Source: Solirubrobacterales bacterium
GTDB lineage: Bacteria > Actinomycetota > Thermoleophilia > Solirubrobacterales > Solirubrobacteraceae
Assembly (NCBI GenBank): GCA_009781575.1
Contig: WQXW01000003.1
Location: 1-22,962, forward strand
Length of the DNA stretch: 22,962 nucleotides
Reading direction: 5' to 3'
Positions 1 to 22,962 of the stretch are shown here, in pieces. How positions within the stretch are numbered: position 1 is the first letter of the stretch; each line of letters begins with the position of its first letter. A program made the translations under genes and the position numbers. Below the pieces are notes generated by a model, which had not been told where the DNA came from, did no database searches, and saw only the letters and a list, made by a program, of their open reading frames with translations.

Positions 1-290
1 AATTGGCCAGCGGCGCCGCCATGATCCGGTATGGCGAAACGGTTGTATTGGTCACTGCCACTGCTTCTGAAAAACCCAGGGCTGGCATCGATTTCTTCCC
101 CCTCAGCACAGATTACGAGGAACGGCTGTATTCCGTGGGGAAAATCCCCGGCGGCAGAAGCGGTTTCATCCGGAGAGAAGGCCGCCCCACGGAGAAAGCG
201 GTCCTCACCTCCCGCCTCATCGACCGGCCCATCCGGCCCCTGTTCCCCGAAGATTACCGGAACGACGTGGCTGTGGTGGCCACGGTGCTG
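1..290 (+). CDS. pnp: Polynucleotide phosphorylase N-terminal fragment (partial both ends)
   Basis: The reading frame beginning at base 3 matches the first RNase PH domain of bacterial PNPase, the 3'-5' phosphorolytic exoribonuclease. Recognisable family blocks are [60 protein letters not shown] and [19 protein letters not shown], in the right order and spacing. The closest resemblance by eye is to Firmicutes PNPases. There is a small apparent insertion (RSG) after KIPGG. The true start lies left of the window. PNPase is about 700 residues long, but here the similarity stops abruptly after VAVVATVL and the frame runs straight into an ion channel. By hand count GC is about 61% in bases 1-240, against about 70% in bases 301-480. 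The identity is secure, but its place in this genome is doubtful and it is most likely a foreign piece joined at a contig end. Confidence 0.85.
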
Positions 291-662
291 GTCGTGCTCA
301 CGCGCGGCGTGGTGCGGCTGATCGGTGAGCACGGGGTGACGATCCAGGCGGTCGCGGGCGCGCTGACGAGCTACCTGCTGATCGGCCTGCTCTTTGCGCT
401 GATCGTGCGCTTTGTCGTGGCCGCCGGGTCGGGTCACTACTTCGCGCAGAGCTCCGGCTCGCACGTCACGCTGAGCGAGGAGATCTATTTCAGCTTCACC
501 ACGCTCACGACCACCGGCTACGGCGATCTCACGCCCACCACCAACGTCGGGCGCATGCTCTCCGTGCTGGAGATGCTCATCGGGCAGATCTACCTGGTGA
601 CTGTGATCGGCCTGCTGATCGGCAACCTGCGGCGCGCGCGTATGCGACGGCCGCAGGAGTGA
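291..662 (+). CDS. Two-TM potassium channel, C-terminal part (5' truncated)
   Basis: This is the C-terminal half of an Ion_trans_2 family K+ channel that would conduct potassium across the inner membrane. The frame shows a hydrophobic helix ([20 protein letters not shown]), then a pore loop with the selectivity filter [10 protein letters not shown] (bases 507-536), then a second hydrophobic helix ([20 protein letters not shown]) and a short basic tail ending in TGA at 660-662. Relatives usually carry extra N-terminal residues, often two more helices. Here the upstream sequence is replaced by PNPase code, with no start codon or ribosome binding site of its own. The junction lies near base 290. 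The gene ends 13 bp from the convergent P450. The channel identity is clear, and the missing N-terminus is probably a joining artefact. Confidence 0.8.
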
Positions 663-12296: not shown

Positions 12297-12551
12297 GGTT
12301 GAGATCGAGGGTCAGATTCCCGCGTCCCGCCTGCGTATGCGCGTAGTTTGCGGGCCTTCCTCCACCCATGGTGGGTACTGGCGAGTGCCGCATCGCATAC
12401 GATAGAGGGGGTTCTGCTGCGGCTCGGTCTGCCCGAGGGGCGAGCGAGCGGGATCGCAAAACGATGATCGAGGGAGCGATGGTGCGGGAGATCGCCGGCC
12501 ACGGGCATGCGGCCGGCGCCGCCGGGAGCGCGAACGGAGGAACGGATCGGG
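12297..12551 (+). other. Intergenic region ahead of the mce cluster
   Basis: 255 bp between the PurM-like gene and MCE1. It contains a short inverted repeat ACCCA-TGG-TGGGT (about 12364-12376) and a weak -10-like TACGAT at 12398-12403 without a convincing -35. A GGAGG at 12536-12540 serves the MCE1 start. If the mce cluster has its own promoter it should be here, but nothing is decisive. A 63-codon frame here has no recognisable content. Confidence 0.4.
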
Positions 12552-14156
12552 TTGACTGAGCAGGGCGCAGTCTGGTGGAGAGGTCGCTCCGCGGGCATGC
12601 TCGCGGGTGTCCTGGTCGCCTGTGCGCTCCTGGCCGTGATCGTCGTGCTCAGCTCCTCCGGCGGCACCAACGGCGAATACAACGTGCGCGCGATCTTCGA
12701 CGACGCCGGCAACGTGATCCCCGGTGAGGACGTCAAGATTCAGGGCGTGCGCGTGGGCGCGGTGGGCGAAGTGGTGCCCACGCCCGCCGGCAGGGCCGCG
12801 GTCGAGCTGAAGATCTCCAACTCCGGCTTTCAGGACTTCCGCGAAGACGCCAGCTGCACGATCCGCCCCCAGGCGCTGATCGGCGAGAAGTACGTCGACT
12901 GCACCCCCACCCAGCCGCGCATGGAAGGCGCCCCGCTGCCCCCGCCCCTGAGCAGGATCCCCTCCGGCCGGGAAGGCGCCGGGCAGTACATGCTGCCGGT
13001 CACCAACACCCACAGCATGGTCGACCCCGACCTGCTCAACGCCATCACCCGCCTGCCCCAGGCGCAGGGGCTGCGCATCATCCTCAACGAACTCGGCACC
13101 GGCCTGGCCGGTCGCGGGAGCGATCTGAAAGAAGTGATCCGCCGCGCCGATCCCACCCTGCAGGAATTCGACCGCGTGCTGAAAATCCTCGCCGGCGAGA
13201 ACCACGTGCTGGTCAACCTCGCCGAAGAATCCGACCGCGCGCTCGCGCCGATCGCCGCCTCGCGCAACCGCCTCTCCGACTTCATCGCCCAGTCCAACAC
13301 GGTGGCCCGCGCGAGCTCCAACACCACCGCGCTGCGTGAGAACCTCGCGCGCCTGCCGGTCTTCCTGGAAGTGCTCGGGCCTGCCATGAGGCGCCTTGGC
13401 AAGTTCGCCGAAGAAACCACGCCCACGTTCACCGACCTGGGCGCGGCCGCGCCCGGCATAAACCGGCTCACCACCAGCCTCGGCCCCTTCTCCGAAAGCT
13501 CGCGCGCCTTCTTCAACTCGCTGGGCCACAGCGCCAAGACCACCGGGCCCGCGCTGCTTGCCACGCAGCCGCTGCTCCGCCGCCTGGAGACGTTCGGCGG
13601 CGCCGCCAAGCCGTTTGCCACGCCCTTCGCCCAGTTGCTCACCAGCGTGCGCTCCACCGGCGGCCTCGAGCGCCTGCTCGACCTGATCTTCATGAGCGCC
13701 GGCGCCACCAACGGCTACGACCAGCTCGGCCACTTCCTGCGCGCCGAGGGCGTGCTCAACGCCTGCGTGACCTACTCGATCACGCCGTTGCACGGCTGCT
13801 CCGCCAAATTCTCGAACTCCACGGTCGCCAGCGCGCCCGCCAGCGCCACGGCCGCCGGCGTCGTGATGCAGCGCACGCTGGCCGTGCTCAAAGGCCTCAC
13901 GCCCGCCCAGGCGATCGCCGCCTACCCCGGCTCGGTGCCTCCACAGGGCGCGGTCTCCGCCCAGGAAGCCGCCGCCTCCGAAGGGGCCGCCCCCGCGACC
14001 GGCGCCCCCGCGAGCGCCCCCAAGCCGGTGGGTGGCGCCGCGCGCGGCACCACCTACTACACGCCGATCGAAGAAGGCTCCGGCGGTGGGGGCTCGGGTG
14101 CGGGCTCGGGCTCGGGCTCGGGTTCCATGTTGCTCAACTACCTGCTGGGCGGCTAG
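12552..14156 (+). CDS. MCE family protein 1 (MlaD domain)
   Basis: A 534-residue first MCE protein of the cluster. It has one N-terminal membrane helix (about 15-35, MLAGVLVACALLAVIVVL), then an MlaD/MCE beta-domain at about 43-117 (NVRAIFDDAGNVIPGEDVKI, GVRVGAVGEV, RPQALIGEKYVDC), then a long helical region to about 430 that would form the tube or barrel of an MCE assembly. MCE proteins bind and carry lipids or sterols across the envelope to an ABC importer. The C-terminus is unusual: an Ala/Pro-rich stretch, a Gly-Ser linker and a hydrophobic end MLLNYLLGG. It starts at TTG 12552 with GGAGG eleven bases upstream; ATG 12507 is a weaker alternative. Glutamate is mostly GAA here, unlike the GAG of the gene before it. 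Confidence 0.9.
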   Translation: MTEQGAVWWRGRSAGMLAGVLVACALLAVIVVLSSSGGTNGEYNVRAIFDDAGNVIPGEDVKIQGVRVGAVGEVVPTPAGRAAVELKISNSGFQDFREDASCTIRPQALIGEKYVDCTPTQPRMEGAPLPPPLSRIPSGREGAGQYMLPVTNTHSMVDPDLLNAITRLPQAQGLRIILNELGTGLAGRGSDLKEVIRRADPTLQEFDRVLKILAGENHVLVNLAEESDRALAPIAASRNRLSDFIAQSNTVARASSNTTALRENLARLPVFLEVLGPAMRRLGKFAEETTPTFTDLGAAAPGINRLTTSLGPFSESSRAFFNSLGHSAKTTGPALLATQPLLRRLETFGGAAKPFATPFAQLLTSVRSTGGLERLLDLIFMSAGATNGYDQLGHFLRAEGVLNACVTYSITPLHGCSAKFSNSTVASAPASATAAGVVMQRTLAVLKGLTPAQAIAAYPGSVPPQGAVSAQEAAASEGAAPATGAPASAPKPVGGAARGTTYYTPIEEGSGGGGSGAGSGSGSGSMLLNYLLGG

Positions 14157-14218
14157 CTGGTGGGCGCCTCGATGAACGCTTCGCCCGACACCCCACGCAC
14201 CGGCGGGCTCGAACACGT

Positions 14219-14286
14219 CTGTCAGAGGCGCCGTTGGGGGATTTGTTTTGAGGATTCGTTTCGCGCGGAACGAATCCTCAAAACAA
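14219..14286 (-). repeat. Dispersed palindromic repeat, copy 2 (inverted)
   Basis: A near-perfect 44-bp palindrome (arms 14243-14264 and 14265-14286, 21 Watson-Crick pairs of 22 plus one G-T) with the same 24-bp tail as copy 1, here on the left side (14219-14242). It lies in the 177-bp gap between MCE1 and the transglycosylase gene. The arms end in TTGTTTTG and CAAAACAA. It is read through by a spurious upstream extension of the transglycosylase frame. Confidence 0.9.
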
Positions 14287-14333
14287 AAAACGGAACGGAC
14301 GCTCCTCGACCGGCACCGCTGAGCCGCCGGGCG

Positions 14334-16628
14334 GTGACACTCCCGCGCGCGCTGCTCGCCGCCGCCGCGGTGTGCGCGCTCTCCTGCGCGCCCGCGCTGG
14401 GCGCCCCAGCGTCCGCGGTTCCGGCCGGGACCGCGCCCGGTGGCTCGACTGGCGTGAGCACCAGCACCACCACGTCGACCTCCACGAGCGCCACCGCCGG
14501 CGCTCCCGCTCCCGCGGGCTCGCCCACCGAATCGTCCAGCACGAGCACCACCACGAGCGCAACGGTCTCGCCGCAGAGCGAACCCACGCCGACCGTGCGG
14601 GGCCAGAGCGTGCAGGGCGCCAGCGAAGCGGCGCGCGGCACCAGCGAAGCGCCGCTCCCCGGTTCCAAGCCGTCGCACACCACCAGGACCGCGGCAAAGC
14701 CGCACCAGCACGGCTCGCACCACCACGGCTCGCGCGGGTCCCACCACCGCCGATCGCACGCCTCGCACGCCTCGCACACCTCACGCACCACGCACCATGC
14801 GGGCTCGCGCGGGCATCACGCCAACGTGCCCCCCCGCGCGCCCGCGCCGTCGGCGCTCACTCCTCCGCTGCCCTCCTCGCTCGCGCTCCCCGGCGCCGGC
14901 GGCGCGGTGCCCAACTTCTTCATCGCCACCTTCTCGATCCCGCCGTTTTTGTTGCCGATCTACCAGGCCGCCGGCAGCGCCTACGGCGTGCCGTGGCAGG
15001 TGCTGGCCGCGATCAACGAAGTCGAGACCGACTACGGGCGCGACCTCAACGTGTCCAGCGCCGGCGCGGAGGGGTGGATGCAGTTTTTGCCCTCCACCTG
15101 GATGCGGTACGGGGTGGACGCCAACGGCGCCGGCTTCGAGGATCCCTACAACCCCGCCGACGCGATCTTCGCCGCCGCCCGCTACCTCGCGGCGGCCGGC
15201 GCGCGCCACAACATGCGCGCCGCGATCTTCGCCTACAACCACTCCCGGGCGTACGTCGAATCGGTGATGCTCCGCGCGGAGCTGTTGGGCGGCACGCCGC
15301 CCGACCTGCTCGGCGCGCTCACGGGGCTCACCGAAGATCGCTTCCCGGTGCACGCCACCGCGCACTTCGCCGACGGCTTCATCGAAGTGCCCCCCGTCGC
15401 GGGCTCCGGCTCGCAGACACTGGTCGGCACCACGATCTACTCGCGCGAAGGCGCGCCGGTGATCGCGGTGCAGGACGGTGAGATCGTCGGGATGGGCCAA
15501 TCGCCCACGCTGGGGCGCTACATCTCGCTGCGCGACGGCTACCACAACACCTACACCTACGCCGGGCTCGCCTCGCTCGCCTCGCTGTACCCCGTGCTCG
15601 CGCCCCGCCCCGCCGCCGACGCCGCCACGAGCGCGCCGCCGCCGATGGGCGCCGCCGTGCCCCAGGCGGCGAGCCCACGCGCCTTCGCGGCGGGCTCCGA
15701 GGAGGTGTACCTGCACACGTTGCGCCCCGGCGCGCGCGTGCTCGCCGGCACGATCCTCGGCCATCTCGGCGCCGGCTCCTCGATCCCCGGCTCGCGATCC
15801 GGCGAACCCCACATGCTCTTCCAGATCCGCCCCGCCGGCTCCGACGCGCCCCTGATCGACCCCAAGCCGATCCTCGACGGCTGGGTCGAGGGCGAAGACA
15901 GCTCGATCTACCACGCCCGGGGCGAGAACCCGTTCCTCTCGGTCTCACCCACGCCGGGGCAGGCGCTGCTCGAGTCCAAGGGCCAGCTCCAGCAGCAGGT
16001 GCTCCGCGATCACGGCATCTCGCTGCCCCGCTGCGAGCGCCTCGCGATCTCCGCGGGCCGGGTCGACCGGCGTGTGCTCGCCGCGCTGGAGTTCCTCTCC
16101 ACCTCCCAGCTGCAGCCCGGCGTGTCCGCGCGCTCCTGCCCCCGCGCGCCGGCCACCAACGACAGCGCCGCGTCGGTGGAGCTCTCCTCGATCAACCGCG
16201 CGCCGGTGGTCGCCGGCCAGGCCGCCGCCGGCCAGGTCGTTGCCGGCCAGGTCGTTGCCGGCCACGCCGCCGCCGGCCACGCCGCCGCCGGCTCCTCCTC
16301 GCCGCTCGTCGCGCAGGCGATCGAACGGCTCCACGGGCTGCAGGGCGCGATGAAGCCGCTCCGGATCTCGACCAGCGCGCCCGCTGGAGAGATCCTGCTC
16401 TCCTACTCGGCCGCCGCGCCCGGCGCCACGGCCGCCGCGCACACCGCCGGCTCGCTCGATCTGCCGCTGAGCGCCGATCAATGGGTGAAGTTGATCGCCC
16501 GTCTCGGGCAGGTGCCCAACCCCGCCGTGCGCGTGGGGCGCTCCGCGGCGGCGATCCCGGACCCCGTGCCCTCCACACCAACGACCGCGCAGCCGGGTGG
16601 CGCGCTCCAAGTCAATGGCAATCACTAG
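14334..16628 (+). CDS. Secreted lytic transglycosylase with degenerate LytM-like domain, embedded in mce cluster
   Basis: A 764-residue exported protein. The signal peptide is MTLPRALLAAAAVCALSCAPALG. The start is GTG 14334, because the longer frame upstream only reads through the palindromic repeat. Residues 35-110 are Ser/Thr-rich and 120-165 His-rich (HQHGSHHHGSRGSHHRR), followed by a Pro-rich linker. Residues about 203-312 are an MltB/SLT-type transglycosylase that cleaves peptidoglycan glycan strands. VLAAINEVETDYGRDL holds the likely catalytic Glu231 and GAEGWMQFLPSTWMRYG follows. Residues about 360-515 resemble a LytM/M23 fold (GAPVIAVQDGEIVGMG, VLAGTILGHLGAGS), but the zinc-ligand HxH reads HMLF, so it is probably inactive. 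The C-terminus holds 15-bp repeats. Its end overlaps MCE2 by 14 bases, which makes it part of the operon. Confidence 0.85.
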   Translation: MTLPRALLAAAAVCALSCAPALGAPASAVPAGTAPGGSTGVSTSTTTSTSTSATAGAPAPAGSPTESSSTSTTTSATVSPQSEPTPTVRGQSVQGASEAARGTSEAPLPGSKPSHTTRTAAKPHQHGSHHHGSRGSHHRRSHASHASHTSRTTHHAGSRGHHANVPPRAPAPSALTPPLPSSLALPGAGGAVPNFFIATFSIPPFLLPIYQAAGSAYGVPWQVLAAINEVETDYGRDLNVSSAGAEGWMQFLPSTWMRYGVDANGAGFEDPYNPADAIFAAARYLAAAGARHNMRAAIFAYNHSRAYVESVMLRAELLGGTPPDLLGALTGLTEDRFPVHATAHFADGFIEVPPVAGSGSQTLVGTTIYSREGAPVIAVQDGEIVGMGQSPTLGRYISLRDGYHNTYTYAGLASLASLYPVLAPRPAADAATSAPPPMGAAVPQAASPRAFAAGSEEVYLHTLRPGARVLAGTILGHLGAGSSIPGSRSGEPHMLFQIRPAGSDAPLIDPKPILDGWVEGEDSSIYHARGENPFLSVSPTPGQALLESKGQLQQQVLRDHGISLPRCERLAISAGRVDRRVLAALEFLSTSQLQPGVSARSCPRAPATNDSAASVELSSINRAPVVAGQAAAGQVVAGQVVAGHAAAGHAAAGSSSPLVAQAIERLHGLQGAMKPLRISTSAPAGEILLSYSAAAPGATAAAHTAGSLDLPLSADQWVKLIARLGQVPNPAVRVGRSAAAIPDPVPSTPTTAQPGGALQVNGNH
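16212..16291 (+). repeat. 15-bp tandem repeat in the transglycosylase gene
   Basis: Six units begin with GCCGG at 16212, 16227, 16242, 16257, 16272 and 16287. They encode a five-residue motif (AGQVV, AGQAA or AGHAA) at about residues 627-653. Copy number changes would keep frame. Confidence 0.85.
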
Positions 16629-18030
16629 TCCCCCACGCGCGCCCCTACCCGAGCCGCCGCAACCCCCGGAGCGCCCGGCACGCGCCGCGCGCCCCCGGCG
16701 CCCGCTGTTCACGCTGCCGCGCGTGCTCGCGATCGGCGGGCTGGGCCTGGTGATCGCGATCGTCGCGCTCCTGCTCCTCACTCGCAAGAGCGGGGCCGAA
16801 TATCACCTGCTGTTCAGCGACTCCGGCTCGCTGGTGCGCGGCGACGAAGTGCAGGTCGGCGGCGTGCCGGTGGGCACGATCAAGAACATCACGCTCAACA
16901 GGGAATACAAGGCGCTCGTCACCATCCAGGTGGAAGGCGCGCTGGTGCCGTTGCACGAGGGCACCACCGCGCAGATCCGCGTGCCCTCGCTGGCGTCGAT
17001 CGCGAACCGCTACATCGCGCTCTCGCCGGGTCCCAACAACCTGCCGGCGCTGAAGAACGGCGCCACCCTGCAGGGGGCGGCGCTGCAGAGCACGGTCGAC
17101 CTCGACCAGCTGTTCAACATCTTCGACAAGCGCACCCGCGAATCGCTGCAGAAGTTCGTCATCGGCTCCTCCGAACAGTACGCCGGCGCCTCGCGCGCGC
17201 TGAGCGCCGCCACGCTGTACTTCCCGCCCTCGCTCGCCGCGGCCACCCACACCTTCAACGAGCTGGCCGGCGACCAGCGGCTCTTTGAGAGCTTCCTGGT
17301 CGAATCCGCCAAAGCGCTCACGATCCTCGGCGAACACCGCGAACACCTCTCGGGGATCGTCCAGAACGCCAGCGCCACCTTCCAGTCGGTCGCCAACGAG
17401 CAGTCCAACATCACCGCGGGACTGAAGCAGCTGCCGCGCGTGTTCGAAGAAGGCAACCGCACGCTCGCCGAACTGCCCTCCACTCTGCACGCGCTGCGCC
17501 AGCTGGTCGACGCCGCCAAGCCCAGCGCGCCGCGCCTCGCGCCGTTCTTCGCCCAGCTGCAATCGCTGCTCCACCCCGCCGAACCGGTGCTCGCCAACCT
17601 CACCACCGCCTTCTCCAAGCCCGGACCCGCCAACGACCTCACCGACGCGGCCTCCCAGCTGCCCGAAGTGGCGCACATCCTCTCCACCGCCAGCCCCGCG
17701 CTGGTGAAGTCGCTGCGCGAAGCGGTTCCGTTCACCACGCCCTTCGGGCCCTACGCGCCCGACTTCATGGGCCTGTTCCGCAACTTCGGGGTCGGCGCCG
17801 GCTACTACGACGCCAACGGCCACTACACGCGCGTGGCCCCCAACTTCGCCGTGTTCAAGCCCGGCGCCAACGGCAGCCTCCAACCGGTCACCCCGGCGCA
17901 GGGCCTGGAAGGGATCAAGCGCGGCCAGCTGCGCCGCTGCCCCGGCGGCGCCACCGCGCCGGCCGCCGACGGGTCCTCGCCGTTCACCGACAACGGCCAG
18001 CTGAGCTGCGACCCGAGCCAGGTGCCGTGA
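16615..18030 (+). CDS. MCE family protein 2
   Basis: A 471-residue MCE protein. A Pro/Arg-rich cytoplasmic N-terminus precedes one membrane helix (about 35-56, LAIGGLGLVIAIVALLLL). An MlaD domain follows at about 62-138 (YHLLFSDSGSLVRGDEVQVG, GVPVGTIKNI, IANRYIALSPG), then a helical region with FNIFDKRTRESLQKFV and repeated heptad-like stretches to about 400. As in other MCE proteins, the domain should face the periplasm-like space and join a hetero-oligomer for lipid transport. ATG 16615 lies within the end of the transglycosylase gene (14-base overlap), so translation is probably coupled. GTG 16597 is an in-frame alternative. The tail is unremarkable, with two Cys near the end (RRCPGG, SCDPSQ). 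Confidence 0.9.
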   Translation: MAITSPPRAPLPEPPQPPERPARAARPRRPLFTLPRVLAIGGLGLVIAIVALLLLTRKSGAEYHLLFSDSGSLVRGDEVQVGGVPVGTIKNITLNREYKALVTIQVEGALVPLHEGTTAQIRVPSLASIANRYIALSPGPNNLPALKNGATLQGAALQSTVDLDQLFNIFDKRTRESLQKFVIGSSEQYAGASRALSAATLYFPPSLAAATHTFNELAGDQRLFESFLVESAKALTILGEHREHLSGIVQNASATFQSVANEQSNITAGLKQLPRVFEEGNRTLAELPSTLHALRQLVDAAKPSAPRLAPFFAQLQSLLHPAEPVLANLTTAFSKPGPANDLTDAASQLPEVAHILSTASPALVKSLREAVPFTTPFGPYAPDFMGLFRNFGVGAGYYDANGHYTRVAPNFAVFKPGANGSLQPVTPAQGLEGIKRGQLRRCPGGATAPAADGSSPFTDNGQLSCDPSQVP

Positions 18031-18100: not shown

Positions 18101-19621
18101 GTGAACGCGCGCCGGCGCTCCTCGATCATGGCCAGCCCGCTGCTGATCGGCGCGGTCACCGCGGTGATCGTGGTGGTCGCGGTGTACCTCTCCTACAACG
18201 CCAACAACGGGCTGCCGTTCACGCCGACCTACGATGTCAAAGTCATGCTGCCGGAGGCCTCGGGGCTGCTGCGCGGCAACCAGGTGCGCATCGGGGGCAA
18301 CCGCGTGGGCGTGGTCGCCTCGCTGTCGCCCGTCCAGAACCACGCCACCGGCCGCGTGACAGCGGAAGTGGAAGCGAAGCTCGAAAAGAGCGCCGGGCCG
18401 CTCCCCGTGGACAGCACCGCGATCGTGCTGTCGGCCTCCGCGGTGGGGCTGAAGTATCTCGAACTCGAACCCGGCAAATCGACGCGCACGATCCCCTCCG
18501 GCGGCACGATCCCGGTCACGCAGACGCGCGAACCGGTGACCATCGACAACCTGTTCGACATGTTCGACAAGCCCACGCGTCTGGCCAACCAGCGCAACCT
18601 GGTCGAATTCGGGCGCGGCTTCGTGGGGCGCGGGCTGGGGATCAACGAAGCGGTCCACGAACTGGTGCCGCTCACGATCCACGCGCGCCCGGTGCTGCAC
18701 AACCTCGCCTCGCCCCAGACGGGGCTGCGGGAGTTCTTCATCGCGCTCGACCGCGCCGCCAAAGAAGTCGCGCCCGTCGCGACTCAGCAGGCCGTCTTCT
18801 ACAGCGATCTCGACACCTTCTTCACCGCGTGGGCCGGGGCGGCCAACGGGCTGGAACGCACGATCCGGGGCGGGCCGGCGGCGCTGGCGCAGGCGATCCA
18901 CTCACTTCCCTACGAGGAACCGTTCGTCGAAAAGGCCACCGAGTTCATGCGCCTGTTGCGCCCCGGCGCGCAGGCGCTGCAAACCGCCGCGCCGCCGCTT
19001 TCGCACGCGTTCACGGTGGGCGCCACCAACCTGCGCGCCGCCACCGCGCTGAACAGCTCGATCTCCACCGCCGCGCGCTCGCTCGCGCAGTTCTCGCGCA
19101 ACCCCATCGTGAATGTGGCGCTCGAAGACTTCACCCACACGCTCCGGCTGGGCACGCCGCTCGTGGGGTCGCTTGCGCCGATGCAGAGCACCTGTAACTA
19201 CATCACGCTCGCCTTCCGCAACATCGCCAGCCTCTTCTCGGAGAGCGTCGGCGTGGGCACGGTCGCGCGCGCCGCGGTCGTGCTCTCGCCGGCGGGCCCC
19301 AACAACGAGGGCTTCCCCTCCGCGGTGCCCGCCGACGGACCCTCGGTGGACCGCTCCGCCAGCGTGGTCGGCACCACCGGCGCGCTCGTCGACGACAACC
19401 ACTTGCACTTCAACCCCTACCCCAACGTGTCCGCCCCCGGCCAGCCGCACGAGTGCGAAGCGGGCAACGAGAGCTACACCGCCGGCAGGGCCACGATCGG
19501 CAACGTGCCGGGCAACGTGGGCACCGCGCACGAAGCGACCAAGCGCTCGCAGAACCTCTTCGGGGTGACCTACCCCGCCGCCCAGCTGAGGGACTTCCCC
19601 AAGGAAGGAAAGAGCAAATGA
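18101..19621 (+). CDS. MCE family protein 3
   Basis: A 506-residue MCE protein. A basic start (MNARRRSS) is followed by a membrane helix at about 12-31, an MlaD domain at about 43-124 (TYDVKVMLPEASGLLRGNQV, IGGNRVGVVASL, AVGLKYLELEPG), a conserved NLFDMFDKPTRLANQRNLV segment and a long helical region. The C-terminal ~90 residues are less helical, with a His/Asn/Pro stretch (DDNHLHFNPYPNVSAPG) that recalls the end regions of some actinobacterial Mce proteins. GTG 18101 has GGGAGG six bases upstream (18089-18094). The 70 bp separating it from MCE2 is the largest gap from the transglycosylase gene onward and shows no terminator. Its TGA overlaps the MCE4 ATG. Confidence 0.92.
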   Translation: MNARRRSSIMASPLLIGAVTAVIVVVAVYLSYNANNGLPFTPTYDVKVMLPEASGLLRGNQVRIGGNRVGVVASLSPVQNHATGRVTAEVEAKLEKSAGPLPVDSTAIVLSASAVGLKYLELEPGKSTRTIPSGGTIPVTQTREPVTIDNLFDMFDKPTRLANQRNLVEFGRGFVGRGLGINEAVHELVPLTIHARPVLHNLASPQTGLREFFIALDRAAKEVAPVATQQAVFYSDLDTFFTAWAGAANGLERTIRGGPAALAQAIHSLPYEEPFVEKATEFMRLLRPGAQALQTAAPPLSHAFTVGATNLRAATALNSSISTAARSLAQFSRNPIVNVALEDFTHTLRLGTPLVGSLAPMQSTCNYITLAFRNIASLFSESVGVGTVARAAVVLSPAGPNNEGFPSAVPADGPSVDRSASVVGTTGALVDDNHLHFNPYPNVSAPGQPHECEAGNESYTAGRATIGNVPGNVGTAHEATKRSQNLFGVTYPAAQLRDFPKEGKSK

Positions 19622-21120
19622 GGCTCGGTTGGTGGCGCCGCCACGACGACATCCCCGTGGTGGAGCTGCACCGCTCCAAACCGGTGCGCTTCGGCGCGGT
19701 CGTGCTGGTGGTGCTGGCGGTGCTGCTGTACTTCGGCTTCACCAAGGCCATACCGTTCAAAAAATCGTACGTCCTCAAGGCCCAGTTCACCTCCGCGCTG
19801 AAGATCCACCCCTCCTCGCCGGTGCGCATCGCGGGGGTCGCCGTCGGCCAGGTCACCGGCCTGCGCCGCGAAGGGCGCACCGGCCTGGTCACGATGGAAA
19901 TCCAAGGCAACGGGCTGCCGATCCACAGCGACGCCACGCTCAAGATCCGCCCGCGCATCTTCCTGGAAGGCAACTTCTTCGTCGAACTGCAGCCCGGCAG
20001 CCCCTCCGCGCCCGATCTGCCGTCGGGCTCGACCATCCCGGTCACCCACACCGCGGTGCCGGTGCAGCTGGACCAGCTGCTGGACGCGCTCAACACCGAC
20101 ACCCGCGCCAACCTCCAGGAATTCCTGCACGGCTACGGCGAATCGCTCACCCACAAGCCCAACGCCGCCGAAAATGCCGAACAGGAACCGGAAGTGAGGG
20201 GACTCAACGGCGCGCAGGCGCTCAACCTCGCCTACCAGCGCGGCCCCAAAGCGTTCAAGGGCTCCACGATCGTGGCCCAGGCGTTCAACGGGGTCGAACA
20301 GCACGACATCTCTCACCTGATCGCCAACACCCGGCGGTTGACCCGCGAGCTGAACGTACACGAAAGCGAGCTCGGCGAATGGGTCGACAACTTCGACACC
20401 TTCCTGCACAACTTCGCCGCCGAGGCCTCCAGCCTCCACGAAGCGGTGGCGCGTTTTCCAAAGACCCTCTCCACCACCAGCCGGGCGTTCGTGGCGATTC
20501 GCGCCGCGTTCCCCGAAGTGCGCACCTTCTCGCGCGCGTTCGCCCCCGGCGTGGCGGAGTTCAACGGCACGATCGACGCCGCGCTGCCGTGGATCGACCA
20601 GGTCAAGGCCTCGCTCGCGCCCAACGAGGTGGGCGGCCTGGCACAGGCCCTGCGCAGCGCCACGCCCGCGTTCGCGCAACTGGTGGCCGCGCAGCCCGCC
20701 TTCTACCGCACCCAGGAACAGTTCAGCAAGTGCCTGACCAACGTGTTCTTCCCCGCCGGCAACACCAAGCTCCAGGACGGCTCCAACACCGCCGGCGTGC
20801 CCGACTACCTGGAGTTCTGGTACGCGCTCACGGGCTTCGCCGGGCTCGGGCAGGGCTTCGACGGCAACGGGCCGCGCACCTCCTTCGTGGTCGGCGGCGG
20901 CGGCCAGCCGGTGCTCTCCGCGCCGGTCACCACGATCGGCGGCAAGAGCTCGGGCGAAAAACTGCACCTGATCGCGCGCGCGGCCTACCCGCCGCTGGGC
21001 ACCAGGCCGCGCCTGCCCGCCAGCGAGCCCCCCTACAAGCCGCTGGTGCCCTGCTCCACGCAGCGCCTGCAGAGCTTCAACGGACCGCTGTCCACCGGCC
21101 CCGCGGATGGGAGCGGCTGA
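19618..21120 (+). CDS. MCE family protein 4
   Basis: A 500-residue MCE protein. The membrane helix is at about 24-41 (RFGAVVLVVLAVLLYFGF). The MlaD domain spans about 50-128, with FTSALKIHPSSPVRIAGVAV and IRPRIFLEGNFFVELQPGSP. The helical region then begins QLDQLLDALNTDTRANLQEF. Its end carries a pair of Cys, in FSKCLTNVFFPAG and PLVPCSTQRLQSF. The start ATG 19618 overlaps the MCE3 stop as ATGA, with AGGAAGGA at 19602-19609 as ribosome site. The stop overlaps the next ATG by one base (TGATG). These overlaps show one polycistronic unit with coupled translation, which suits a complex needing fixed subunit ratios. Confidence 0.92.
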   Translation: MRLGWWRRHDDIPVVELHRSKPVRFGAVVLVVLAVLLYFGFTKAIPFKKSYVLKAQFTSALKIHPSSPVRIAGVAVGQVTGLRREGRTGLVTMEIQGNGLPIHSDATLKIRPRIFLEGNFFVELQPGSPSAPDLPSGSTIPVTHTAVPVQLDQLLDALNTDTRANLQEFLHGYGESLTHKPNAAENAEQEPEVRGLNGAQALNLAYQRGPKAFKGSTIVAQAFNGVEQHDISHLIANTRRLTRELNVHESELGEWVDNFDTFLHNFAAEASSLHEAVARFPKTLSTTSRAFVAIRAAFPEVRTFSRAFAPGVAEFNGTIDAALPWIDQVKASLAPNEVGGLAQALRSATPAFAQLVAAQPAFYRTQEQFSKCLTNVFFPAGNTKLQDGSNTAGVPDYLEFWYALTGFAGLGQGFDGNGPRTSFVVGGGGQPVLSAPVTTIGGKSSGEKLHLIARAAYPPLGTRPRLPASEPPYKPLVPCSTQRLQSFNGPLSTGPADGSG

Positions 21121-22631
21121 TGGCCCCGGCGAGCACGCCCGACACCCACGAGGGCGGCCGCGGTATTCGCGACCAGATCCAGCGCTACCGCACCGCGTTC
21201 ATCTCGCTGATCTCGATGGTGCTGATCGCCGCGGTCGTGGGCGGCTACATCCTGGCGCACGAGCGCCTCTCGCTCCCCGGCTGGGTGCCGGTGCTGGGGC
21301 ACGAATACTTCACGCTGAAGGGCGAATTCAGGACCGGCCAGGCGCTCACTCCCGGCCAGGGCCAGACGGTCACGATCGCCGGCGCCAAGATCGGCGAAAT
21401 CTCGAGTGTGGACCTCAACAACGGCGTGGCGCTGGTGAGCATGAACATCACGCCCAAGTACGCCCACTACATCCATCACAACGCCACCATGCTGATGCGG
21501 CCCAAAACCAACCTCAAGGACATGGTGATCGAGGTCGACCCCGGCACCCCCGACACGGGGCAACTGAAGAGCGGAGCCGTGATCCCGCTCTCGCAGACCG
21601 CGCCCGACGTGAACCTCGACGAATTCCTCGCCTCGCTCGACGGCGAAACGCGCGCGCTCCTCCAGGAGCTCCTGGCCGGCGCCGGCCAGGGGCTGGGGCA
21701 CAGCGGACGCACGCTGGCGGCGGTGTACAAGCGCTTCGACCCCGCCGAGCGCGCGCTCGAAGAAATCGGGCACCAACTGCAGTTCCGCCACCAGAACATC
21801 TCCCACGCGATCCACAACTTCCAGCTGCTGCTCGGCGCGATCGGCAGCAAGGACCAGCAGCTCGCCGAAGTGGTCCACTCCTCAAACCAGGTCTTCCGCA
21901 CCTTTGCCAGCGAGGAAAAAGCGTTCCAGCGCACGTTGCACCTGCTGCCGGGCGCGCTCACCTCCACCGAACAGGGGCTCGGCAAGCTCGCCGCCGCCTC
22001 GCGCGTGGTCGCCCCCACGCTCACCCGCCTGGAGCCGTTCGCGCACGCCCTGGCCCCCGCGCTGCGCCAGTTCGAGCCCTTCCTGCGCGAAACCACGCCG
22101 GTGTTCAAGAACGAGATCCGCCCCTTCGCGCGCCAGATCCTGCCGGTCGTGCGGCAGGTCTCGCCCTCGGTCCACCAGCTCTCGCAAGCGTTCCCCGATC
22201 TGAGGACCGGCTTCTCGGTCTTCTCCGAACTGCTCAACGAGTTCGCCTACAACCCCGGCCCCAACCAGGCCGGCTTCCTCTTCTTTTTGCTGTGGGCCAA
22301 CCACAACTTCAACAGCGTCACCAGCCTCGCCGACGCGCACGGCACGCTGGGCCACACGCTGCTGTACTTCAACTGTGAAGTCACGCCGCTGCTGAGCGAG
22401 TCGGCCAAGGTCAACCCGGACGTCAACCTGCTGATCGGCCTGCTCAAACCGCCCACCCCCGCCGAATGCACCGCGCGCGGCCTGCCGGTGCCGAGGTTCG
22501 GCACCGCCCTGGCCGCCCGCGCCCACAGCGCCGCGCATGCCCACGCCGCTGCGCACGGCCTCGCCGCCGCGCGCGCCCACAGTGCCACGCAAGCCCACAG
22601 CGCCGCGGCGCCGAGCGGAGGGGGCCACTGA
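21120..22631 (+). CDS. MCE family protein 5
   Basis: A 503-residue MCE protein. A cytoplasmic N-terminus is followed by a membrane helix at about 26-46 (AFISLISMVLIAAVVGGYIL) and an MlaD domain at about 62-140 (FTLKGEFRTGQALTPGQGQT, IAGAKIGEISSV, TNLKDMVIEVDPG). The long helical region begins NLDEFLASLDGETRALLQEL. A conserved segment NEFAYNPGPNQAGFLFFLLW, typical of actinobacterial Mce proteins, lies near 373-392. The last ~38 residues are an Ala/His-rich low-complexity tail (ARAHSAAHAHAAAHG). The start shares its A with the MCE4 TGA. MCE6 begins one base after its stop, with GGAGGGG near 22617-22623 serving as ribosome site for MCE6. Confidence 0.92.
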   Translation: MAPASTPDTHEGGRGIRDQIQRYRTAFISLISMVLIAAVVGGYILAHERLSLPGWVPVLGHEYFTLKGEFRTGQALTPGQGQTVTIAGAKIGEISSVDLNNGVALVSMNITPKYAHYIHHNATMLMRPKTNLKDMVIEVDPGTPDTGQLKSGAVIPLSQTAPDVNLDEFLASLDGETRALLQELLAGAGQGLGHSGRTLAAVYKRFDPAERALEEIGHQLQFRHQNISHAIHNFQLLLGAIGSKDQQLAEVVHSSNQVFRTFASEEKAFQRTLHLLPGALTSTEQGLGKLAAASRVVAPTLTRLEPFAHALAPALRQFEPFLRETTPVFKNEIRPFARQILPVVRQVSPSVHQLSQAFPDLRTGFSVFSELLNEFAYNPGPNQAGFLFFLLWANHNFNSVTSLADAHGTLGHTLLYFNCEVTPLLSESAKVNPDVNLLIGLLKPPTPAECTARGLPVPRFGTALAARAHSAAHAHAAAHGLAAARAHSATQAHSAAAPSGGGH

Positions 22632-22632
22632 G

Positions 22633-22962
22633 ATGCAGAAGCGCGCGCCCACGCTCGCCAACGTGCTCGTGATCGTGCTGTTTGCGCTGAGCTGCTTCGG
22701 CCTGCTGCTGTTCCTGTGGGAGGCGTTCGGCGGGCCGGTGCCGCTCAAGCCCAAGGGGTACCGCTTCGAGGTGTCGTTCCCGCGCGCGCTCGCGCTGGCC
22801 GAACAGTCGGATGTGCGCATCAGCGGGGTCAACGTGGGCAAAGTGATCTCGCTGAAAGCCGGCGGCGACGGGCGCACGCACGTGATCGTGGAAATGGAAA
22901 ACAAATTCGCGCCCCTGAGCTCGGCCGATCACGTGATCCTGCGCCAGAAGACGCTGCTGGGG
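22633..22962 (+). CDS. MCE family protein 6 (3' truncated by window)
   Basis: The first 110 residues of a sixth MCE protein. After MQKRAPTLAN comes a membrane helix at about 11-29 (VLVIVLFALSCFGLLLFLW), then an MlaD domain from about 43 (YRFEVSFPRALALAEQSDVR, ISGVNVGKVISL, VIVEMENKFAPLSSADHVIL), running off the edge at QKTLLG. It starts at ATG 22633, two bases past the MCE5 stop codon, in the same polycistronic arrangement. With this gene the cluster reaches six MCE genes, the canonical mceA-F number. Confidence 0.9.
   Translation, partial: MQKRAPTLANVLVIVLFALSCFGLLLFLWEAFGGPVPLKPKGYRFEVSFPRALALAEQSDVRISGVNVGKVISLKAGGDGRTHVIVEMENKFAPLSSADHVILRQKTLLG

Follow-up and report, generated by a model that had tools for sequence, protein, structure and literature searches.

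The window, that is, the whole stretch of DNA that was analysed, coincides with a contig of 22,962 bases belonging to a 2.25 Mb MAG (73% complete, 1.4% contamination). A Pfam profile search of the window revealed six genes encoding an MlaD domain (MCE1 to MCE6), which run in one direction from position 12507 to the contig end, where the sixth is cut (table 1). The six genes are consecutive except for a sole interruption, namely the gene of a lytic transglycosylase (LT) located between MCE1 and MCE2. The LT gene overlaps MCE2 by 32 nt if the latter starts at GTG 16597, or by 14 nt if it starts at ATG 16615, confirming the position and the overlap given in the preliminary description.

Table 1. 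Coordinates of the mce genes, of the LT gene with its domains and of the repeat in the window.
Feature	Positions	Strand	Basis and remarks
MCE1	12507..14156	+	MlaD domain, PF02470 2.5e-11; tree orthologue of the second mce gene in other genera
Palindromic dispersed repeat	14225..14308 (outer limits approximate)	.	Between MCE1 and LT start
Lytic transglycosylase (LT)	14334..16628	+	Signal-peptide-like start, linker, SLT, LytM, C-terminal domain
SLT/MltB-type catalytic domain	14949..15338 (approximate)	+	Pfam, Slt35 alignment, Glu and GWMQF motifs
LytM/M23-like domain	15426..15884 (approximate)	+	PF01551 8.3e-8, alignment, fold matches; long internal loop, zinc-ligand motifs absent
C-terminal domain	15885..16625	+	M15/extensin-like weakly in relatives; HxxGxAxD and HIHVGF absent in window
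MCE2	16597..18030	+	PF02470 1.3e-13; tree orthologue of the first mce gene in other genera
MCE3	18101..19621	+	PF02470 1e-12
MCE4	19618..21120	+	PF02470 6.2e-12
MCE5	21120..22631	+	PF02470 7.4e-8
MCE6, cut by contig end	22582..22962	+	PF02470 at 22753-22962, 5e-9

Six different MlaD subunits encoded in one operon are shared with the actinobacterial Mce operons (M. tuberculosis mce1-4 and others). In the genus-level group of uncultured Solirubrobacterales to which the window belongs (hereafter, the group), an ABC ATPase of the MlaF/MceG type is encoded at most two genes after MCE6 in all 18 loci that extend past MCE6 (in L068 as a Pfam ABC_tran match); the window contig itself ends in MCE6. Unlike the actinobacterial Mce operons, which comprise two yrbE and six mce genes, the first two mce genes are here swapped with respect to other genera, the LT gene stands between them and the yrbE matches are found elsewhere. 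No YrbE match was obtained in the window or in 20 group loci (tblastn, 1e-4), a pair of yrbE genes immediately upstream thus being absent. MlaE matches are present in 23 of the 24 group genomes, and among the matches listed none falls on the mce contig, the yrbE matches of the group being located on contigs other than that of the mce operon. A tree built from 72 MCE proteins of 12 loci shows the six mce genes to be one-to-one orthologues throughout the order and the first two to have changed places in the group, so that the operon was rebuilt at exactly the MCE1-MCE2 junction. A protein of about 245-345 aa, the start of which is signal-peptide-like, is encoded upstream of MCE1 in 17 of the 20 fetched group loci (e.g. 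L068:5300-6208), the other three contigs ending near MCE1; it was not found in the window, was without a Pfam match in both copies scanned and has weak relatives next to mce arrays at five further loci. At the opposite end of the window (1-662), the first ORF seems to fuse two stretches, which we take to be polynucleotide-phosphorylase-like and potassium-channel-like, possibly as the result of an assembly chimera at the contig end.

The maximum extent of the LT open reading frame is 14160-16628 on the forward strand, yielding 822 aa from GTG 14160 and 764 aa from GTG 14334. The translation from GTG 14334 opens with a signal-peptide-like stretch (read by eye), from which the LT is probably exported, and continues into a low-complexity linker rich in Ser, Thr, Pro and His, start and linker together accounting for approximately 205 residues. 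The frame is also open from GTG 14160, a start that would place the LT 3 nt from MCE1, matching the relatives. It is less favoured, because the dispersed repeat occupies part of the stretch 14160-14334 and the signal-peptide-like sequence begins at 14334. The repeat has an inner stem of 21 pairs with a core at 14246-14283 (z -7.3). The core, AGGATTCGTT-8-AACGAATCCT, occurs at 11 places in the MAG of the window and has no exact match among the 20 group loci L067-L086 (337 kb). Of the 10 other copies in the MAG, 5 were examined, all of which fall outside called genes. The repeat looks like a REP-type element, and the window gave no Rfam match at gathering thresholds. The repeat, the LytM domain devoid of zinc ligands and the C-terminal domain had all been overlooked in the preliminary description.

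The assignment of the LT to the MltB/SLT type made there is borne out by Pfam matches to SLT_2 (5e-16; 59.2 bits, cut-off 24.3) and SLT (2.7e-10; 40.3 bits, cut-off 21.3), which, together with Peptidase_M23 (8.3e-8), all exceed the cut-offs. Among PDB sequences the best matches were obtained with Slt35/MltB chains (7.7e-7), with which the LT shares the SLT_2/SLT domain and an alignable catalytic Glu region, the latter coinciding with the VET motif of Slt35, whose Glu we take to be the catalytic one. The window LT differs from MltB/Slt35 in its long linker and in the fusion of the SLT domain, behind that linker, to a LytM and a C-terminal one, and it scores far under the MltB equivalog TIGR02282 (43.7 bits versus the NCBIfam cut-off of 281.4). 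The catalytic motif, INEVETDYG, with the Glu codon at 15024-15026 in the window, is indeed intact, being identical in 18/18 operon LTs, and the catalytic Glu and the GWMQF motif are both kept in all 78 LT family members compared.

The two domains that follow are in a different state. The zinc pattern HxGxD of the LytM domain was found in 0/78 family members, and the second His of HxH in 0/18 operon LTs, 0/20 other group LTs and 5/40 LTs of other genera, the window sequence reading HML; the HxxxD and HxH ligands of an active M23 peptidase are thus missing from the LT. For the C-terminal domain, a scan of three relatives returned PF06904 (extensin-like) below the cut-off (E 0.013-0.21). The motifs HxxGxAxD and HIHVGF, which presumably resemble those of M15-like peptidases, are both kept in 32/40 LTs of other genera, in 4/20 other group LTs and in 2/18 operon LTs; the window, where both are missing, does not have the signature of an M15/extensin-like peptidase. 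From the intact Glu motif, the LytM domain without zinc ligands and the loss of the C-terminal motifs, the glycan-cutting domain would plausibly be the only active one in the window LT. Reading the loss of the M15-like motifs as a sign of recruitment to Mce is weakened by the fact that most group paralogues outside the operon lost them as well, so that the loss is no peculiarity of the operon LTs.

An AlphaFold2 model of the LT built with 23 sequences has a mean pLDDT of 64 and a pTM of 0.42, with low values in part of the SLT region. Most of the best 50 of 101 Foldseek matches are LytM/M23 structures, including EnvC, DipM and SpoIIQ; a cyanophage ejectosome protein ranks first and known LT structures are absent from these 50, so that the LT assignment rests on the sequence rather than on the model. 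EnvC, DipM and SpoIIQ lack the full set of zinc ligands, and SpoIIQ, itself of the LytM fold, builds a trans-envelope channel together with SpoIIIAH. The LytM fold is thus shared with these proteins, from which the window LytM domain differs in being fused behind an SLT domain. By analogy with SpoIIQ, the LT might be an anchor instead of a cutter, its LytM and C-terminal domains tying the tunnel to the wall and the SLT domain serving for glycan binding or slow local remodelling. The absence of the zinc pattern throughout the family and of the second His in every operon copy, as well as the nature of the fold matches, would agree with this proposal. It is nevertheless considered improbable in view of the invariant Glu motif of the 18 operon copies and of the dN/dS value of the SLT domain, the lowest in the protein (see below), which together point to catalysis.

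The distribution of the arrangement was determined in 24 group genomes, of which 23 have MlaD matches and 18 a high-scoring match of the operon-type LT. Genome G201 has no mce match; G203 and G204, in which the mce arrays are incomplete and an operon-type LT match is lacking, were left out. Of the 21 mce loci thus considered (the window and 20 fetched), 18 carry the LT gene between MCE1 and MCE2, including L083, whose contig ends after the LT, and L068, in which MCE2 was missed by gene calling and an MlaD domain is listed at its place. A chance co-location of LT and mce genes is rejected by these 18 loci. MCE1 and MCE2 are adjacent, without an LT, in G099, G184 and G205. Outside the group, the LT is found in none of 60 mce loci from other genera of the order (59 genomes, in sets of 20 and 40), with the qualification that six or more mce genes were called in 41 of these loci, the other 19 being cut by contig ends or miscalled, so that the first mce junction is not visible in every locus. 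Only 3 of 156 non-group junctions exceed 600 nt, one of them separating two operons; the other two are spanned only by opposite-strand ORFs and were read as missed MCE genes.

Thus, a hydrolase gene lies within the operon of the machine and is conserved there inside the group, yet not outside it. The expectation of a conserved gene order across many genomes, which the preliminary description had raised and a neighbourhood check has now addressed, holds for 18/21 loci of the group and fails for the 60 loci of other genera and the three group loci without LT. In view of the latter two sets, in which Mce systems persist without the LT, its being a general Mce component is not supported. Nor is this an undescribed system, as had been suggested: the LT family being otherwise stand-alone, the locus represents a variant of a known one. 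What is confirmed is a lineage-specific Mce operon variant with an embedded LT, the catalytic motif of which is intact.

Within the group the packing is tight, the MCE1-LT spacing ranging from -4 to +13 nt in 14/16 operon copies (window and L071 set aside); an in-frame LT start nearer MCE1 is readable in L070, L071 and L080. The group is also deep, the window and its closest relative being 62% identical over the concatenated MCE proteins. In the database, 42 loci encoding LT relatives were found, 16 with the LT downstream of MCE1 and 26 without this order; the 16 belong to MAGs with differing isolate names and overlap the genomes already counted. The top-scoring relatives are from Solirubrobacterales, Solirubrobacteraceae and other actinobacterial MAGs, isolate names of which (palsa, Chersky) suggest a permafrost and soil habitat.

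The full-length identity among the 18 operon LTs falls to 0.46, and that of the 130-residue SLT core stays at 0.72 or above. From pairwise Nei-Gojobori calculations on six pairs, which are rough because of the high GC and not independent as they share members, the dN/dS of the SLT domain is 0.14-0.23 versus 0.20-0.41 for MCE1-3, being lower than that of every MCE gene of the same pair in 6/6 cases. In the same calculations (with the pair L079/L081 left out of the domain values, and five pairs for the C-terminal domain), dN/dS is 0.37-0.76 for the linker and 0.30-0.63 for the C-terminal domain. Taken over its full length, the LT has a dN/dS of 0.33-0.47 in the six pairs and is under weaker constraint than the MCE genes next to it. 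Thus, the catalytic domain is held more firmly than the adjoining transporter genes, and the rest of the LT less so. These values bear on the reading of the LT as a decaying duplicate or an assembly artefact devoid of present function, for which one could invoke the low-complexity linker, the degenerate C-terminal domain and the origin of the window from a single contig of an incomplete MAG. With the LT frame open in all 18 operon loci, the SLT domain under purifying selection and the same gene order in database MAGs of different isolate names, such a reading is very unlikely indeed.

With respect to the origin of the operon LT, the SLT-LytM region is matched in 194/201 genomes of the order, and a tree of 78 LTs resolves the 18 operon copies as one clade (SH-aLRT 100), with two further clades made up of the 20 other group copies (96) and of the 40 copies of other genera (97), the depth of one clade being made unsure by the very long branch of L134 and by two fused giants. 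The operon LTs forming one clade, there is no sign of exchange with copies outside the operon. Horizontal gain from another family is disfavoured by this tree, which is restricted to LTs of the order and in which the operon copies are placed together with the other ones. The operon LT is best read as a duplicate of the stand-alone LT family of the order; the tree being unrooted, we infer that the duplication took place within the group. Besides the MAG of the window, which has no second match, 17 genomes bear the operon LT; in 16 of them a second, different LT match is present elsewhere (E 4e-57 or better), and in G160 there is only a weaker one. Thus, a homologue is generally available in these genomes for general wall work. 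The three LT-less loci form one clade and the grouping of the LT-bearing loci is little supported (57/20); a gain inside the group and a gain with loss are both conceivable, a single change of state being enough in either case.

An LT and an mce match are 26-56 kb apart on one contig in 19 non-group genomes, which are hand-picked examples among the matches listed and do not give a rate. The corresponding distances within the group are 30 kb in G099 and 49 kb in G105. G165, not counted among the 19, agrees, with about 21 and 39 kb among the matches listed. G005 is a counter-example, the pairs listed being more than 370 kb apart, though at its locus L122 one LT has an mce gene at a distance of up to about 9 kb. 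The LT may therefore be regarded as a candidate old chromosomal neighbour of mce, a duplicate of which would have been captured by the operon.

The stand-alone habit of the family also speaks for the possibility that an LT paralogue involved in general growth or division simply landed in the mce operon, where it borrows the promoter with no tie to Mce, and is retained as its deletion would disturb the operon or as general wall turnover benefits. None of the 40 fetched non-group LT loci has the LT adjoining an mce gene (in L122 one is approximately nine genes away), and the neighbours at two stand-alone loci, ftsH and beta-oxidation genes in L109, and ccmF and Nramp genes in L130, include nothing reminiscent of a transport tunnel. 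The identical position and the tight junctions of the 18 copies across a deep clade, and the grouping of these copies apart from those outside the operon, argue against mere carriage, which we regard as a serious rival, though rather less probable than not.

A functional link between LT and Mce is the most likely reading. Its specific form, a lineage-specific recruitment of a wall-cutting LT for the benefit of the Mce tunnel of single-membrane cells, is advanced tentatively, with confidence that stops just short of even. According to this proposal, a stand-alone LT consisting of SLT, a LytM domain without zinc ligands and an M15-like domain would have been duplicated in the ancestry of the group, and one duplicate captured by the mce operon at the junction of its first two genes. 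Presumably co-transcribed, it would be made together with the six Mce subunits and exported, and would then cut or nick glycan strands at the places where Mce complexes assemble, allowing the tunnel to be threaded through, or anchored in, the thick wall of the single-membrane cell. The LytM and C-terminal domains would serve for binding to peptidoglycan or to Mce rather than for peptide cleavage. In favour of the proposal stand the position in 18/21 loci, the tight MCE1-LT spacing, the single clade, the invariant catalytic motif and the low dN/dS of the SLT domain. The mce loci devoid of an LT, the second LT match of most genomes, the weaker constraint on the full-length LT, the loss of the M15-like motifs outside the operon too and the middling confidence of the structure model weigh against it. 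Wall opening for the tunnel fits the available evidence. VirB1 and FlgJ/SltF are dedicated peptidoglycan hydrolases of trans-envelope machines.

A type VI secretion system (T6SS) requires the dedicated wall hydrolase TagX, an L,D-endopeptidase proposed to act by peptide cleavage, as reported in PMC5061870. With TagX the LT shares the encoding of a wall-cutting enzyme in the gene cluster of a wall-crossing machine, the difference being that here a transglycosylase would act on behalf of a lipid-transporting tunnel, and in an actinobacterium with a single membrane. In PMC10665443, the MCE hexamers of PqiB and Mce1 are described as tunnels spanning the periplasm, and MlaDE homologues, with a function stated to be unknown, are ascribed to monoderm Actinobacteria, mainly Solirubrobacterales among others. 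Among the open-licence papers listed on mce, MlaD, LTs and Thermoleophilia, judged mostly by titles and the opening lines of abstracts, no description of an LT inside an mce operon was found, in agreement with the preliminary description, which knew of no Mce system with a dedicated transglycosylase, and the available parts of PMC9850167, PMC9947336, PMC10665443, PMC9882608 and PMC1810536 describe none. In a preprint on the mycobacterial Mce structure the word ‘peptidoglycan’ has 0 occurrences. How Mce tunnels pass through, or are seated in, peptidoglycan seems unaddressed.

In M. tuberculosis, Mce1 and Mce4 proteins are the most under-represented ones in an mceG mutant, the exceptions being RipC, Rv2536 and CelA1, and RipC is a weak peptidoglycan hydrolase (PMC9947336). 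The depletion of RipC hints at a wider link between Mce and the wall. It would also fit a model in which the LT is a built-in subunit of the Mce transporter, docked via its LytM domain and opening or seating the tunnel, with a separately encoded hydrolase doing the same job in other Mce systems; this extended version is rather less probable than not. The presence of the LT in the operon suggests that the Mce tunnels of the group come equipped with a tool of their own for being fitted into the wall. The LT-bearing lineage lends itself to asking whether Mce requires wall remodelling, the gene and its active-site residue being defined and the three sister loci without LT constituting a natural control.

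The loci of the stand-alone LTs present some features of their own. A small protein (e.g. L109:11455-12258) is encoded no more than two genes from the LT in 19/40 non-group LT loci; two copies scanned gave no Pfam match, and no blastp match was found between this neighbour and the protein encoded upstream of MCE1 in the group. The SLT domain is joined to long extra sequence in L138:5506-13200 (2565 aa), L134:8029-13488 (1820 aa) and L140:4-3752 (1250 aa), the lengths being those of the genes as called. Finally, a further LT occurs in a similar gene row in five loci (L198, L199, L200, L201 and L203), the row of L201:619-7272 consisting of DnaJ, a small gene, ClpB, a 289-aa protein without Pfam match and the LT.
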